Source: Rhodococcus phenolicus (GTDB taxonomy: Bacteria > Actinomycetota > Actinomycetes > Mycobacteriales > Mycobacteriaceae). From it: a DNA stretch of 57,632 nt. Positions 35,066 to 39,760 of the stretch are shown here, piece after piece. The notes below the pieces were generated by a model. The model was not told where the DNA came from, did not search any database, and was given only the letters and a program-made list of their open reading frames with translations. Where the stretch lies: the NCBI RefSeq assembly GCF_001646785.1, contig NZ_LRRH01000231.1:1-57632 (forward strand). The letters run 5' to 3'. Every line of letters starts with the position of its first letter. Positions within the stretch are counted from its first letter, which is position 1. Both the position numbers and the translations under genes were made by a program.

Positions 35066-35815
35066 ATGCACGCGGACGACATCGACGACGTTCTCGACAT
35101 CCTCACCGCTGTCGTGGCCGACACCACCGCGGTGGCGAACCCGCGCGGATTCTTCGCGGCGTTGTACCGGCAGGTGACTCTGGAGGTGCGCCGCGGCATC
35201 GTCTCCGGCGACTTCGACGACGGCGCGCGAATGAGGGTCTTCGATGCCGCGTTCGCGAACCGCTACTTCTCCGCCTACGAATCGTCGCCGCCTCCGACCC
35301 GGTCGTGGCGGGTGACGTTCGACGCGATCGCGTCGTCCCCGCTGATCGTGATGCAGAACCTGCTGCTCGGCATCAACGCACACATCAATCTCGACCTCGC
35401 GGTCGTCACCGGGACCTCGTTCCACGGGCGTGAACTCGACGACTTCCGTGCCGACTACGACCGCATCAACGGCATTCTCGCCGAACTGGTTCCGCGGATC
35501 CGAGGGGCGATCGTCCGGTTCTCGCCTCTGTTCGGCCTGCTCGGGCCGTTCGACGACGGTCTCGAGCCGATTCTCGACTTCAGTTTCGAGCGGGCACGCG
35601 ACAGTGCGTGGGCGGCGGCGACGCTGATCTCGGCGCAGAACCCGCAGACGGTGCCGCTGCTCGTCGCCCAGATAGATGCCGCGACGTCCCGCCTCGGACA
35701 GCTCATCGCCCGTCCGGACGAACCGGCCGCGACCCTGTTGCGGTTGATCCGCCGCACCGAGAGCAGCGACGTGCCGGCGATCATCACGGCGCTCGACACG
35801 ATCGCGGTGCCCTGA
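35066..35815 (+). CDS. DUF5995 family protein
   Basis: A 249-residue soluble protein, mostly helical, from ATG 35066 after a GAGGAG site. Typical DUF5995 stretches are RGFFAALYRQVTLEVRRGI, RMRVFDAAFANRYFSAYE, and the core VMQNLLLGINAHINLDLAVV, a His-containing segment that may bind metal. No function is known for the family. It is preceded by the first copy of the 22-bp motif found before the next two units, which suggests co-regulation with the MNIO and protease-nuclease genes. Confidence 0.82.
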   Translation: MHADDIDDVLDILTAVVADTTAVANPRGFFAALYRQVTLEVRRGIVSGDFDDGARMRVFDAAFANRYFSAYESSPPPTRSWRVTFDAIASSPLIVMQNLLLGINAHINLDLAVVTGTSFHGRELDDFRADYDRINGILAELVPRIRGAIVRFSPLFGLLGPFDDGLEPILDFSFERARDSAWAAATLISAQNPQTVPLLVAQIDAATSRLGQLIARPDEPAATLLRLIRRTESSDVPAIITALDTIAVP

Positions 35816-35847: not shown

Positions 35848-35911
35848 TGAACCACGTTGTCGGCTCGTACTTTCGAAGACACCGCAGATCCGATCAGGAG
35901 GGGAGCACACC

Positions 35912-36148
35912 ATGGCAGAGTTCGAATCACGTGGTCCGCGTTCGCCGGACACGGTGCGGGTTTATCTGCCGCATCACACCGCACACGATCTCGACGCGGT
36001 CGCGAGGATCTCCCGGCAGGTGCTCGAACGGCTCGGTTGCCCCGGCTGCACATCCGGGTTCGACATCCGATTCGTCGAGTTGAGGGACTTCGTGGTGGAT
36101 CCCGACGGGCTCGACATCCGGGAGATCCCCGGTGTTCCGGGCTACTGA
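35912..36148 (+). CDS. Small CxxC protein, candidate MNIO partner or substrate
   Basis: A 78-residue soluble protein from ATG 35912 after a strong GGAGGGGAG site. It has no signal peptide. The only cysteines form a single CPGC pair at residues 43-46 (LERLGCPGCTSGFDIRF). The C-terminus is acidic and ends IPGVPGY. It overlaps the DUF692/MNIO gene by 17 bases. MNIO enzymes modify Cys- or Asp-containing peptides, so this could be the substrate; alternatively it is a carrier or structural partner. I do not recognise it as a named family. Confidence 0.7.
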   Translation: MAEFESRGPRSPDTVRVYLPHHTAHDLDAVARISRQVLERLGCPGCTSGFDIRFVELRDFVVDPDGLDIREIPGVPGY

Positions 36149-37538
36149 CGGTTCCGTCCTCGGTGTCGGCATGGTCTATGCCCCGGCGCTCGGGCCGGTT
36201 TTCGAAGCGGGTGCGAGCGTCGTGGCGGTCGCCGAACTGGAGCCACAAACACTGTGGCGCCCGGTCTGTTCCGAAGGAGGCTGGCGGTATCGGGTCGACG
36301 AGTGGGCGCTGAACGCGGTGGCTGCACTGCCGCAACGCAAGCTCGTTCACGGGGTGGGCCAGCCGCTCGCCGGGACTGTCGACGATCCGCTGGACTACCG
36401 AACCCCGTTGCGAGGCAGCGTCGATCTGCTGGACCCGCCGTGGGTCAGCGAGCACCTCGGTTTCGTGCGCACCGAGGGCGCCTCGGGGATCGAGCACGCC
36501 GGATTCCTGTTGCCGCCCGACCGGACGCGGGAGCAGATCGCGGTGGCCGCGGAGAACATCGACCGCTACCGGCGCGTGGTGAGCAGGCCGGTCGCGTTCG
36601 AAACCGGAGTCGACTACCGGACCGCACGCGACGATGAACTCGGCGACGGCGTCTTCTTCCGGGGCGTCGCCGAGCGCTCAGGCAGCGGAATCGTGCTGGA
36701 CCTGCACAATCTGTGGTGCAACGAGATCAACGGCCGCGACACGGTCCGCGATGTCCTGGCCGACCTCCCGCTGGACCGCGTATGGGAGGTGCATGTCGCC
36801 GGCGGTGACGAAATGGACGGATACCGGCTCGACGCCCACAGTGGCGCGGTACCGGGCGAACTGCTCGATCTCTCTGCCGAGGTGGTGCCGGATCTGCCGA
36901 ACCTGCGGGCGCTGACCTTCGAGATCATGCCGTCCAACGTCGCCCGCCTCGGGCTCGACGGCGTGCACACCCAGCTCGAACGGTTGTGGCAGATCTGGGA
37001 CCTGAGACCGGCGGCCCCGCCGGAGCCGTTCCCTGCGGCCGTCGCGACCCACGCGACCGCCGCGGACCGCGCGTTCGTGCACCGTGCGGAGCGGGATCTG
37101 GTTGCGGCCCTGCGTGGTCCGGGACGGCCCGAGGCCGGCGTGCGTCTGTACGGCAGGCTCGTCGAGGAACAGCGGCGGGCTCAGCTCGCGCAGGTGATGC
37201 GGTACACGACGACGGCGTTGCTGACCACGCTCGGCGCGACGGCCACGGAAGCGGTGATCGCCGCGTACACGGCAGCGCACCCGCCGGAGACGGCACCCGG
37301 GCTCGAGGGATACACGTTCTCGGGTTTCCTGGCGGCGCGCCCGGATCTCGTCGCAGCGGTGCCGCATCTGCGGCAGGTTCTCGCGTTCGAGACCGCGCTG
37401 CTGCGGGCGGCGCTGTTCGGGGCGTCGACGGTGGTCGAGTGGGACGTCGACCCGGCGCGGGTCCTCGATGCCCTCGACGGTGGGCACGCCCCGGGCGTTC
37501 TCGAGCCGGCGTCGTACTCGATGTCGGTGGAGATCTGA
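36132..37538 (+). CDS. DUF692/MNIO-family enzyme with fused C-terminal domain
   Basis: 468 residues from GTG 36132. The first 290 residues form a TIM barrel of the multinuclear non-haem iron oxidative enzyme family. Candidate iron ligands are H108 (VSEHLGF), E157 (FETG), D190/H192/N193 (LDLHNLWCNE), H221 (EVHVAGG), H236 (DAHSG) and E264 (FEIMP). A proline-rich linker (292-303) leads to a helical C-terminal domain of about 160 residues, which resembles in position the separate partner protein that presents substrate to other MNIOs. Known members make RiPP modifications on Cys or Asp. Coupling to a small CxxC protein supports a RiPP-like or protein-modification role, but the product is unknown. 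Confidence 0.8.
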   Translation: MFRATDGSVLGVGMVYAPALGPVFEAGASVVAVAELEPQTLWRPVCSEGGWRYRVDEWALNAVAALPQRKLVHGVGQPLAGTVDDPLDYRTPLRGSVDLLDPPWVSEHLGFVRTEGASGIEHAGFLLPPDRTREQIAVAAENIDRYRRVVSRPVAFETGVDYRTARDDELGDGVFFRGVAERSGSGIVLDLHNLWCNEINGRDTVRDVLADLPLDRVWEVHVAGGDEMDGYRLDAHSGAVPGELLDLSAEVVPDLPNLRALTFEIMPSNVARLGLDGVHTQLERLWQIWDLRPAAPPEPFPAAVATHATAADRAFVHRAERDLVAALRGPGRPEAGVRLYGRLVEEQRRAQLAQVMRYTTTALLTTLGATATEAVIAAYTAAHPPETAPGLEGYTFSGFLAARPDLVAAVPHLRQVLAFETALLRAALFGASTVVEWDVDPARVLDALDGGHAPGVLEPASYSMSVEI

Positions 37539-37690: not shown

Positions 37691-39760
37691 ATGACGATCA
37701 TCTCCAACACCAGGATCACCGGGTCCGGCGACAACGCCGCGGCCTACCTGACCGAACGCGAACACCAGCGACGCGCTGCGGCGCGGCGCATAGTCGACCG
37801 GACGGAGGTGCGGACCGGCAACGAGCAGGTGCTCGACGAGCCCGGCGGGATCGCTCGTGCCGACGATCCGGAACGGATCGCCAGACGTCTCGACCGGGTC
37901 AGCCGGTACTACCTCGGTGGCGACACCGCGCACGCGCCCACGGGTGCGGATCCTGCCGCGCTGATCGAATCGGCGCTCGAACGTGCCCCGTCGATCCTGG
38001 GATCTGCGACCGAGGATGCGGATTCGATGCTCGAAAAGATCATCAACACTGCCGATTTCGTCGGAGTGCGCTACCTCGACGAGGGTGTGGCGGCCGCGCG
38101 GGCGATCGGCCGGGTCCACATCCTCGGTGCCGGCGGTTCGCGGCTCGGGTACGGCACCGGCTTCCTGGTCTCGCCGCACCTGTTGCTCACCAATCATCAT
38201 GTGCTTCCCGACGCCGCGACCGCGTCGGCGAGCGCCGTCGAGTTCGACTACCAGGACGGAATCGACGGGCACCCCCTGCATCCGAGGTCGGTGTCACTGG
38301 ATCCGAGTCGCTTCTTCGTCGCCGACCGGGAACGGGATTTCACGCTCGTCGCGGTCGATGCACCGCCGGAGGTTCTGGCACAGTACGGGTTCAATCGCCT
38401 GACCACTGCCCAGGGCACGATCGTCATCGGTGAGTTCGTGACCATCGTGCAGCATCCGCGTGGCGAGAAGAAGCAGATCGCGCTGCGGGAGAACAAGATC
38501 GTCGATATCCCCGAGATGTTCGTGCACTACTCGGCGGATACCGAGCCCGGTTCGTCCGGCTCCCCGGTCTTCAACGATCAATGGGAGGTCGTCGCACTCC
38601 ATCACGCGAGCGTGCGAGCCCCACAGCAGACCGAGTACGGCGGATTCCTCAACGAGGGCGTACGGATCAGCCGGATTCTGCAGTTCCTCGACGACCGGGA
38701 TCTGCCGTCCGCACAACGGGCCCTGGTTGCGGAGTTGACCACCGCCGACCGCCCGGAGCTGCTGACGGATCGGCCGGTCCCACAGGCACGCCCGGACCCC
38801 GCCGACGATCCCGGTGCGGCCGCTACGCCGGACGGTGCCGTGACGGTGCGGGTGCCCTGCGGCCGGACGGTGGAGCTCACCGTCCGCGTCGGCGAAACCG
38901 GTTCGGCAGCAGTGATTCCTCCGCCCGATATCGAGGCGATCTCCATCGACCCCGACTACAGCCGACGCGCCGGTTTCGATCCCGGCTTCCTCGGTTCGAT
39001 GCTTCCGCTCCCGGGCGTGACGGGCGACGCCGCGCGGGTGGCCTCCGGCGAATTGCGCTACCACCACTTCAGTGTCGTCATGCACCGGCGCCGCCGGTTG
39101 GCGTTGTTCACGGCGGTGAACATCGACGGCGGACTCGCGCAGAGGCTCCGGCGCGACGGCGACCGGTGGATCCGCGATCCGCGTCTGCCCGACGACGAGC
39201 AGACGGGGGAGGAGGTGTATCGCGACAATCCGCTCGACCGGGGGCATCTCGTGCGTCGCCTCGATCCGGCATGGGGTCCCGCCGCGACAGCGGCGAACGA
39301 CGACACCTTCCACTTCACGAACTGCACTCCGCAGCACCATGATTTCAATGCCGGCAGCACCCTGTGGCTCGGCCTCGAGGACTACGTGCTCGGCAACGCC
39401 GACACGCGGGATCTGAAGGTGAGCGTGGTGACCGGCCCGATCCTGTCGGCCGAGGATCCGCTGTACCGGGGTGTCGCCCTGCCGCGCCAGTACTGGAAGG
39501 TGGTGGCGATGAGGAAGTCCGACGGCACGCTGTCCGCCACCGGATATCTGCTGAGTCAGGCTGCGTTGCTCGACGAGTTCCTGGCAGGTCCGGAGGAGTT
39601 CTCGTTCGGGGCCTATCGCACCTACCAGGTCCCGGTGCGGCGGATCGCCTCGATGACCGGTCTGGGGTTCGATGCCTATGTGGCCGCGGATCCGCTCGAC
39701 CGCATCGAGGCGAGCACCGTCGCCCGCGAGTTGCTGCGTCCGCAGGATCCGATCCTGTGA
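37691..39760 (+). CDS. Trypsin-like serine protease fused to DNA/RNA non-specific endonuclease
   Basis: 689 residues from ATG 37691. A charged helical lead (1-135) precedes a trypsin-like domain with H170 (LLTNHHVLPD), D216 (ERDFTLVAVD) and S289 (EPGSSGSPVFND). A proline-rich linker (360-385) and a short beta region lead to a NUC1 (DRGH) nuclease domain with D516-H519 (LDRGHLVRRLDPAWG) and the metal-binding N in FHFTNCTPQHHDFN. No signal peptide is visible, so it is probably cytosolic or released by another route. A nuclease held in check and freed or activated by its own protease would suit an abortive or contact-killing role; this is inference. Both active sites look intact. Confidence 0.87.
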   Translation: MTIISNTRITGSGDNAAAYLTEREHQRRAAARRIVDRTEVRTGNEQVLDEPGGIARADDPERIARRLDRVSRYYLGGDTAHAPTGADPAALIESALERAPSILGSATEDADSMLEKIINTADFVGVRYLDEGVAAARAIGRVHILGAGGSRLGYGTGFLVSPHLLLTNHHVLPDAATASASAVEFDYQDGIDGHPLHPRSVSLDPSRFFVADRERDFTLVAVDAPPEVLAQYGFNRLTTAQGTIVIGEFVTIVQHPRGEKKQIALRENKIVDIPEMFVHYSADTEPGSSGSPVFNDQWEVVALHHASVRAPQQTEYGGFLNEGVRISRILQFLDDRDLPSAQRALVAELTTADRPELLTDRPVPQARPDPADDPGAAATPDGAVTVRVPCGRTVELTVRVGETGSAAVIPPPDIEAISIDPDYSRRAGFDPGFLGSMLPLPGVTGDAARVASGELRYHHFSVVMHRRRRLALFTAVNIDGGLAQRLRRDGDRWIRDPRLPDDEQTGEEVYRDNPLDRGHLVRRLDPAWGPAATAANDDTFHFTNCTPQHHDFNAGSTLWLGLEDYVLGNADTRDLKVSVVTGPILSAEDPLYRGVALPRQYWKVVAMRKSDGTLSATGYLLSQAALLDEFLAGPEEFSFGAYRTYQVPVRRIASMTGLGFDAYVAADPLDRIEASTVARELLRPQDPIL

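Follow-up and report, generated by a model that had tools for sequence, protein, structure and literature searches.

The small CxxC gene and the fused MNIO gene described here from Rhodococcus phenolicus form a real cassette, and by analogy with characterized MNIO systems we think it probable that this cassette is a self-contained modification unit, in which the fused MNIO would oxidize the CxxC motif of the 78-residue protein encoded by the preceding gene.

The gene pair in R. phenolicus

The two genes lie in the window analysed, a stretch of 57,632 nucleotides to which all positions refer, and the features discussed below are the following:

35896..35903, + strand: Shine-Dalgarno-like AGGAGGGG ahead of the small gene, read by eye
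35912..36148, + strand: gene for the 78-residue soluble CxxC protein, a putative MNIO substrate (open reading frame, family alignment and linkage)
36038..36049, + strand: codons of C43-P-G-C46, the core of a G-C-x-[GA]-C-[HTC]-S-G motif (cysteines conserved in 118/119 and 119/119 rows, respectively)
36132..36148, + strand: 17-base overlap between the end of the small open reading frame and the MNIO start (sequence)
36132..36998, + strand: MNIO TIM barrel with candidate iron ligands (Pfam match and alignment)
36999..37538, + strand: fused C-terminal domain, apparently DUF2063-like and partner-related, with a short beta-alpha-beta tail (sub-threshold Pfam match and hhalign)

An earlier note on this DNA had described a 78-residue protein with one CPGC pair overlapping the MNIO start by 17 bases, and the coordinates and lengths are as it claimed. 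The small protein has a single CPGC pair (C43 and C46), and by eye its N-terminus is not hydrophobic and no signal peptide was seen. The MNIO open reading frame (36132-37538, 468 residues) opens with a GTG codon at 36132, and the sequence shows the next start in frame to be an ATG at 36171. Among named relatives, those from Rhodococcus are closest at this locus, and a comparison of R. phenolicus with Rhodococcus sp. HM1 by the NG86 method gave a dN of 0.091 and a dS of 0.284 for the small gene, and a dN of 0.104 and a dS of 0.424 for the MNIO gene. Both open reading frames are genes rather than chance frames, as the small protein is kept across phyla and dN is well below dS.

The MNIO barrel and its C-terminal domain

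The MNIO open reading frame scored strongly against the Pfam model PF05114, MbnB_TglH_ChrH (8.7e-33, 114.1 bits against a cut-off of 25), and by this score and its conserved His, Asp, Glu and Asn residues it belongs to that superfamily; it is the only PF05114 match in the 6.28-Mb genome. Nine candidate ligands (H73, H108, E157, D190, N193, H221, D234, H236 and E264) were identical in 10 of 10 homologs, as anticipated in the earlier note, and these positions were also aligned to those of TglH and MbnB, to which the aligned barrel has 17–18% identity. In HvfB, residues N175, D242 and H244 are reported to be essential, and the motifs suggest that the metal-site residues of the R. phenolicus enzyme are their equivalents.

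The C-terminal domain of the MNIO (~170–180 residues, about 290–468) is separate from the barrel and, in a model of a homolog, consists largely of helices followed by a short beta-alpha-beta tail, apparently not long enough to be a full RRE. It scored below the Pfam cut-off for DUF2063 (14.2 bits against 27.2, E-value 0.056), and two of eight such C-terminal pieces gave sub-threshold DUF2063 matches (E-values of 0.056 and 0.068). A single hhalign comparison of nine C-terminal domains with 18 standalone DUF2063 proteins gave a Prob of 94.0 and an E-value of 1.5e-7 over 121 columns, against a Prob of 0.2 or less for the controls, i.e., five column-shuffled profiles and the small-protein profile. 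The partner profile was built from 18 of 30 Myxococcota DUF2063 ORFs; the six fusions were omitted, as were six more ORFs whose open frames are long. The domain thus shows the remote, below-signature relation to DUF2063 of PME-type 2, and by sequence comparison it appears to be DUF2063-like and related to the MNIO partner, which is usually a separate protein, in agreement with the earlier description of it as partner-like; the hhalign relation therefore suggests that the partner is present in cis.

Linkage, distribution and phylogeny

Genome searches with the small protein gave matches in 3 of 244, 3 of 345, 1 of 282, 5 of 346 and 3 of 101 genomes, in sets that overlap, and in 4 of 4 chosen genomes; with G387 and G007, which look like one genome, counted once, 13 distinct genomes had a match at an E-value of 0.001 or less. 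In ten of the 13, from three phyla, the small gene is directly 5' of a fused-type MNIO gene (G000, G007, G067, G388, G389, G390, G897, G727, G1335 and G1297, R. phenolicus included; the MNIO match in G390 falls short of the final part of the C-terminal domain). The earlier note's view of the two genes as a conserved pair holds in these ten genomes, and as for its concern that the small protein might lack the cysteines at homologous loci, a CxxC copy is kept in all ten linked loci. In the junctions examined by eye the two genes overlap or are at most 19 bases apart, the MNIO start of one (L044) being uncertain.

Several further matches covered the motif only. Those in G598 (31 residues, 3 stops) and in G1448 and G1449 (17–19 residues around the motif) were judged to be chance, and two in IMG/VR viral contigs (L047 and L048) were dropped; none of these matches had an MNIO in the stretch examined around it.

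When searched from the MNIO side, 32 of 101 relatives had an MNIO match, which was full length only in G000, G007 and G067. The small protein was found in all three of these full-length-fusion genomes, that of R. phenolicus included, and in none of the 29 with a barrel-only match, one of which extends to query residue 330; these events are not fully independent, since two of the three genomes belong to one genus. A class-wide MNIO search of 296 genomes at an E-value of 1e-30 or less identified only the fusion of R. phenolicus itself, and MNIO searches centred on G1335 and G1297 added no full-length fusion from the 35 and 75 other genomes of those sets, respectively; these two genomes lend no independent support, since the pair was already known in both centres.

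In a midpoint-rooted tree of 56 barrels, with a comparison set of 17 actinobacterial barrel-only MNIOs and 29 Myxococcota MNIOs found via DUF2063, the ten fused MNIOs are on one branch of 1.63 with 100/100 support and form a separate clade. One-ORF MNIO-DUF2063 fusions, with open frames of 549–706 codons, are also present in 6 of the 30 Myxococcota DUF2063 loci (L056, L059, L064, L068, L069 and L072). These group by themselves among the Myxococcota MNIOs, and the fusion of MNIO and partner therefore seems to have occurred at least twice. The Myxococcota fusions appear to be nature's equivalents of the engineered HvfBC fusion, and the profile of the small CxxC protein had no match in any of the 30 loci. 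Divergence of the small protein and the MNIO was correlated over the ten loci (Mantel r 0.70, p 0.003) owing to one near-identical Rhodococcus pair, and without that pair the correlation was not significant (r 0.20, p 0.15, nine loci). MAFFT misaligned mixed rows of small protein and MNIO; local alignments were used, and the alignments A8 and A11 were discarded.

The family of small CxxC proteins

We conducted three protein searches with the small protein, the last of which identified 571 relatives at an E-value of 1 or less among 2182 candidates, and the best 120 were taken. The resulting alignment (A14) has 119 rows, comprising 111 of these 120 relatives, the R. phenolicus protein and seven loci; the nine omitted are one near-identical protein (P0001), six long ones and two fragments (P0041 and P0112). 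The earlier note had proposed that conservation of the CPGC pair be assessed among homologs. Both cysteines are kept, C43 in 118 and C46 in 119 of the 119 rows, figures that are upper bounds and biased upward because the search, by shared 5-residue words, and the profile both favor motif-bearing members. S48 is invariant as well and G49 nearly so (119/119 and 118/119, respectively), while Pro44 is present in just 59 of the 119 rows. Most members share the motif G-C-x-[GA]-C-[HTC]-S-G-x-D-I-R, represented in R. phenolicus by GCPGCTSG. Conservation outside the cysteines includes D51 and R53 (120/124 each) and F60 (121/124). The motif is internal, with 23–39 residues after C46 across the 119 rows. 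The same note had also asked about conservation of the C-terminal residues, and here the outcome was negative: of the 119 rows, 44 end in R, 22 in G, 20 in F and the rest in other residues, a variability that makes the C-terminus an unlikely target of modification. Family members listed among the best 120 of the 571 include proteins of Rhodococcus, Kribbella, Thermomonas sp. HDW16 and Fulvivirga ligni, as well as of a Dormibacteraeota MAG and a Fimbriimonadaceae MAG.

A structural model based on the 119 rows (mean pLDDT 78, pTM 0.56; block pLDDT of 82–92 for residues 11–70) predicts the small protein to be a small folded beta-alpha-beta-beta domain, with strands at residues 14–20, 51–57, 59–62 and 69–72 and a helix at 27–41. 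These predicted elements would therefore place the CxxC motif in the loop from helix to strand.

Some copies have unusual arrangements. In genome G727, a Cys-less paralog (L042:3842-4174, - strand; LGYPDGYAGF), recognized by eye, lies immediately 5' of the CxxC copy with its MNIO, and in G1297 a tandem two-domain small protein (L044:3658-4647, - strand) has a first domain without the first Cys. Two other relatives, P0011 and P0037, are tandem duplications of the small domain, and in P0056 (121 residues) the small domain runs into the start of an MNIO in one reading frame; this could be a natural fusion or a sequencing frameshift, the longest contig being 636 bases.

A folded domain with this pLDDT and with conservation at D51, R53 and F60 could also belong to a second accessory subunit, i.e., a scaffold, a redox or metal donor or a recognition factor, assisting the MNIO on another protein or peptide encoded elsewhere, and the Cys-less paralog and the tandem copy lacking its first Cys suggest that the fold can occur without the pair. 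We nevertheless consider a subunit of this kind unlikely, as the Cys motif has the strongest conservation in the family, the partner role would already be held by the fused DUF2063-like domain, and no third gene recurs beside the pair in most of the loci examined.

Gene neighborhoods

In R. phenolicus the pair is flanked upstream by a DUF5995 gene and downstream by a gene for a trypsin-nuclease fusion, and the other neighbors are common to Rhodococcus sp. HM1 only. Elsewhere a tblastn search gave one weak dehydrogenase match (L043, 23% identity), and a zinc-type dehydrogenase gene, of a very common family, is near the pair in L044. The DUF5995 gene (35066-35815, + strand) has a counterpart in Rhodococcus sp. 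HM1 that matches in pieces, some of them on the opposite strand. The downstream gene (37691-39760, + strand) encodes a 689-residue protein that joins a trypsin-like protease (PF13365) to a DNA/RNA non-specific endonuclease (PF01223) and is 86.5% identical to its Rhodococcus sp. HM1 counterpart; its PADLOC matches, to RT-Protease_XI and LmuA, are confined to the protease part.

ABC transporter genes are near the pair in three loci, namely an ABC exporter directly upstream in G067 (L004/L046), a MacB/FtsX permease just downstream in L024, and an ABC ATPase ~2.5 kb upstream in L041. Peptidase genes are likewise near it in three loci (S66 in L023, M19 in L025 and DPPIV-type in L042), and in L023, from a Chitinophagaceae MAG, S66 LD-carboxypeptidase genes are on either side of the pair (L023:4735-5643 and L023:7708-8907, both - strand). 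No single transport or peptidase family was found beside most copies, the neighbors having been annotated in part, but with such genes nearby export or cleavage keeps some likelihood.

The ABC genes in G067, L024 and L041 and the S66 peptidases in L023 would be of use to a classical RiPP pathway, in which a leader-core precursor is modified and cut to release a short cysteine-derived metallophore or signal; known MNIO substrates are mostly RiPP precursors (PMC12452194; this and the other papers cited by PMC number are drawn on from partial texts), and the two conserved cysteines resemble the ChrA-like CPxCGxG core (PMC12636315). However, these transport and peptidase genes come from different families and other copies of the pair lack them, the trypsin-like domain downstream in R. 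phenolicus is fused to a nuclease, no signal peptide was seen by eye, and the residues that follow the internal motif include a conserved beta-hairpin; we regard a released peptide product as improbable. That the adjacency is incidental, or the small open reading frame not a gene at all, has nothing but the size of that frame in its favor and deserves practically no credence, being refuted by the linkage of the pair in ten genomes of three phyla, with genes that overlap or nearly touch in the junctions examined and with dN well below dS.

Relationship to known MNIO systems

The closest functional analogs are in the ChrH/DybH subfamily, described as minimal precursor and MNIO pairs in which the enzyme has a fused C-terminal helical domain; there DybH oxidizes a CPxC motif without a separate partner, with a loss of 4 Da, and the subfamily accepts protein substrates, a congener with CPGCGLG and a CPACGMMM motif that is embedded (PMC12636315). 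The R. phenolicus pair resembles these systems in being a two-gene unit, in having, as ChrH is described to have, a helical C-terminal domain in the same chain, and in having a Gly three residues past the second Cys. In contrast, the core of ChrA-like precursors is CPxCGxG and usually C-terminal (PMC12636315), whereas in the family studied here the motif, C-x-[GA]-C-[HTC]-S-G, is internal in a predicted folded domain and has Pro in only about half of the members; that of R. phenolicus, GCPGCTSG, thus departs from the ChrH-type motif in both sequence and position. The R. phenolicus MNIO also scored far below the NCBIfam MNIO_ChrH cut-off (54.9 bits against 600), the best E-value among the ten members being 6.6e-16.

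The best NCBIfam match of the R. phenolicus MNIO, though a weak one, is to BufB, a model matched by all 10 members; its 92.6 bits miss the equivalog cut-off of 310, and it is far below the ApyH and HvfB equivalog cut-offs too. The pair has in common with HvfB-HvfC and BufB-BufC an MNIO and a DUF2063-type partner that would act on Cys, but here the partner appears to be in cis and without a full-length RRE. HvfB and HvfC bind only weakly, hence the engineered fusion of the two, which is active, and the partner is required for the mixed-valent diiron state (PMC13419390, a 2026 preprint); the domain order of that HvfBC fusion is the same as that of the fused MNIO described here. Natural fused MNIOs of other types are on record, i.e., ChrH, which carries a helical bundle, and MovX, which carries an RRE (PMC13419390). 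A natural one-chain MNIO with a C-terminal helper domain is, by its description, similarly active without a separate partner, but has a reported RRE and acts on Asp/Asn (PMC12636315). TglH-TglI and MbnB-MbnC differ in having a separate partner, and their substrates are a C-terminal Cys and methanobactin, respectively.

The small protein may itself have been recorded, as adjamnio-7, a group of signal-less CxxC putative precursors beside MNIO cluster #7, e.g., in Novilysobacter spongiicola (PMC12452194). As in that group, the protein described here has a CxxC, lacks a signal peptide by eye and adjoins an MNIO, and the adjamnio-7 example is from the Lysobacteraceae, a family represented among our relatives by Thermomonas sp. 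HDW16. Judging from the description, adjamnio-7 (example WP_078758616) and the family studied here are probably one and the same, so this kind of precursor may have been reported before; the available part of PMC12452194 does not mention an MNIO-DUF2063 fusion for adjamnio-7 or cluster #7, and in the literature searched, itself seen as partial texts, we found no published account of this fusion. The earlier note had proposed that a soluble substrate of this size would be unlike bufferins and many known RiPPs. The candidate differs from bufferins in having two cysteines only and, as read by eye, probably no signal peptide, but the contrast with known RiPPs is weaker than was claimed, given the precedents of adjamnio-7 (PMC12452194) and of the CPxC protein substrates of the ChrH subfamily (PMC12636315), at least as their partial texts describe them. 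The combination of a fused partner and a CxxC protein is thus partly foreshadowed by adjamnio-7, by ChrH/DybH as a close functional analog and by the other fused MNIOs.

Proposed function and mechanism

From these comparisons we infer a scheme for complex formation, modification, chemistry and cellular role of the cassette. The MNIO would bring its partner domain in cis, which would make it a self-sufficient enzyme in the manner of the engineered HvfBC fusion, and its substrate would be the 78-residue protein. The CxxC loop of the small protein may enter the MNIO barrel, where a mixed-valent diiron site would bind one Cys thiolate through its ferric iron and a four-electron oxidation driven by O2 would convert the CxxC; oxidation of this kind is expected because DybH sets a precedent on CPxC, with its loss of 4 Da and no separate partner. 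Likely products would be a ChrH/DybH-like macrocycle with a hydantoin or one or more 5-thiooxazoles, with a change of about -4 Da per event. In our judgement a ChrH-like cross-link is a good candidate, albeit short of an even chance, a thiooxazole is slightly less favored, and some other product is the least expected of the three while still a serious prospect; ChrH-like products are described as having no absorbance feature (PMC12636315). The modified protein would most likely stay intracellular, because no one protease or exporter family was found to recur among the neighbors annotated and no signal peptide was seen by eye. More tentatively, and with less than even confidence, we speculate that the cassette makes a protein-derived cofactor, the CxxC being converted to a permanent heterocycle or macrocycle within an intact metal-binding, redox or sensing protein.

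Significance

MNIOs usually require a separate partner, and the R. phenolicus locus offers a natural fusion together with a 78-residue, two-Cys substrate candidate, so that two genes suffice for experiments on the enzyme, its partner and its putative substrate. Should the modified small protein remain intact, the reach of MNIO chemistry would widen beyond peptide natural products to cofactors built into proteins, and if the cofactor reading is true, the cassette would be a protein modification system present in several phyla and not a pathway to a natural product.
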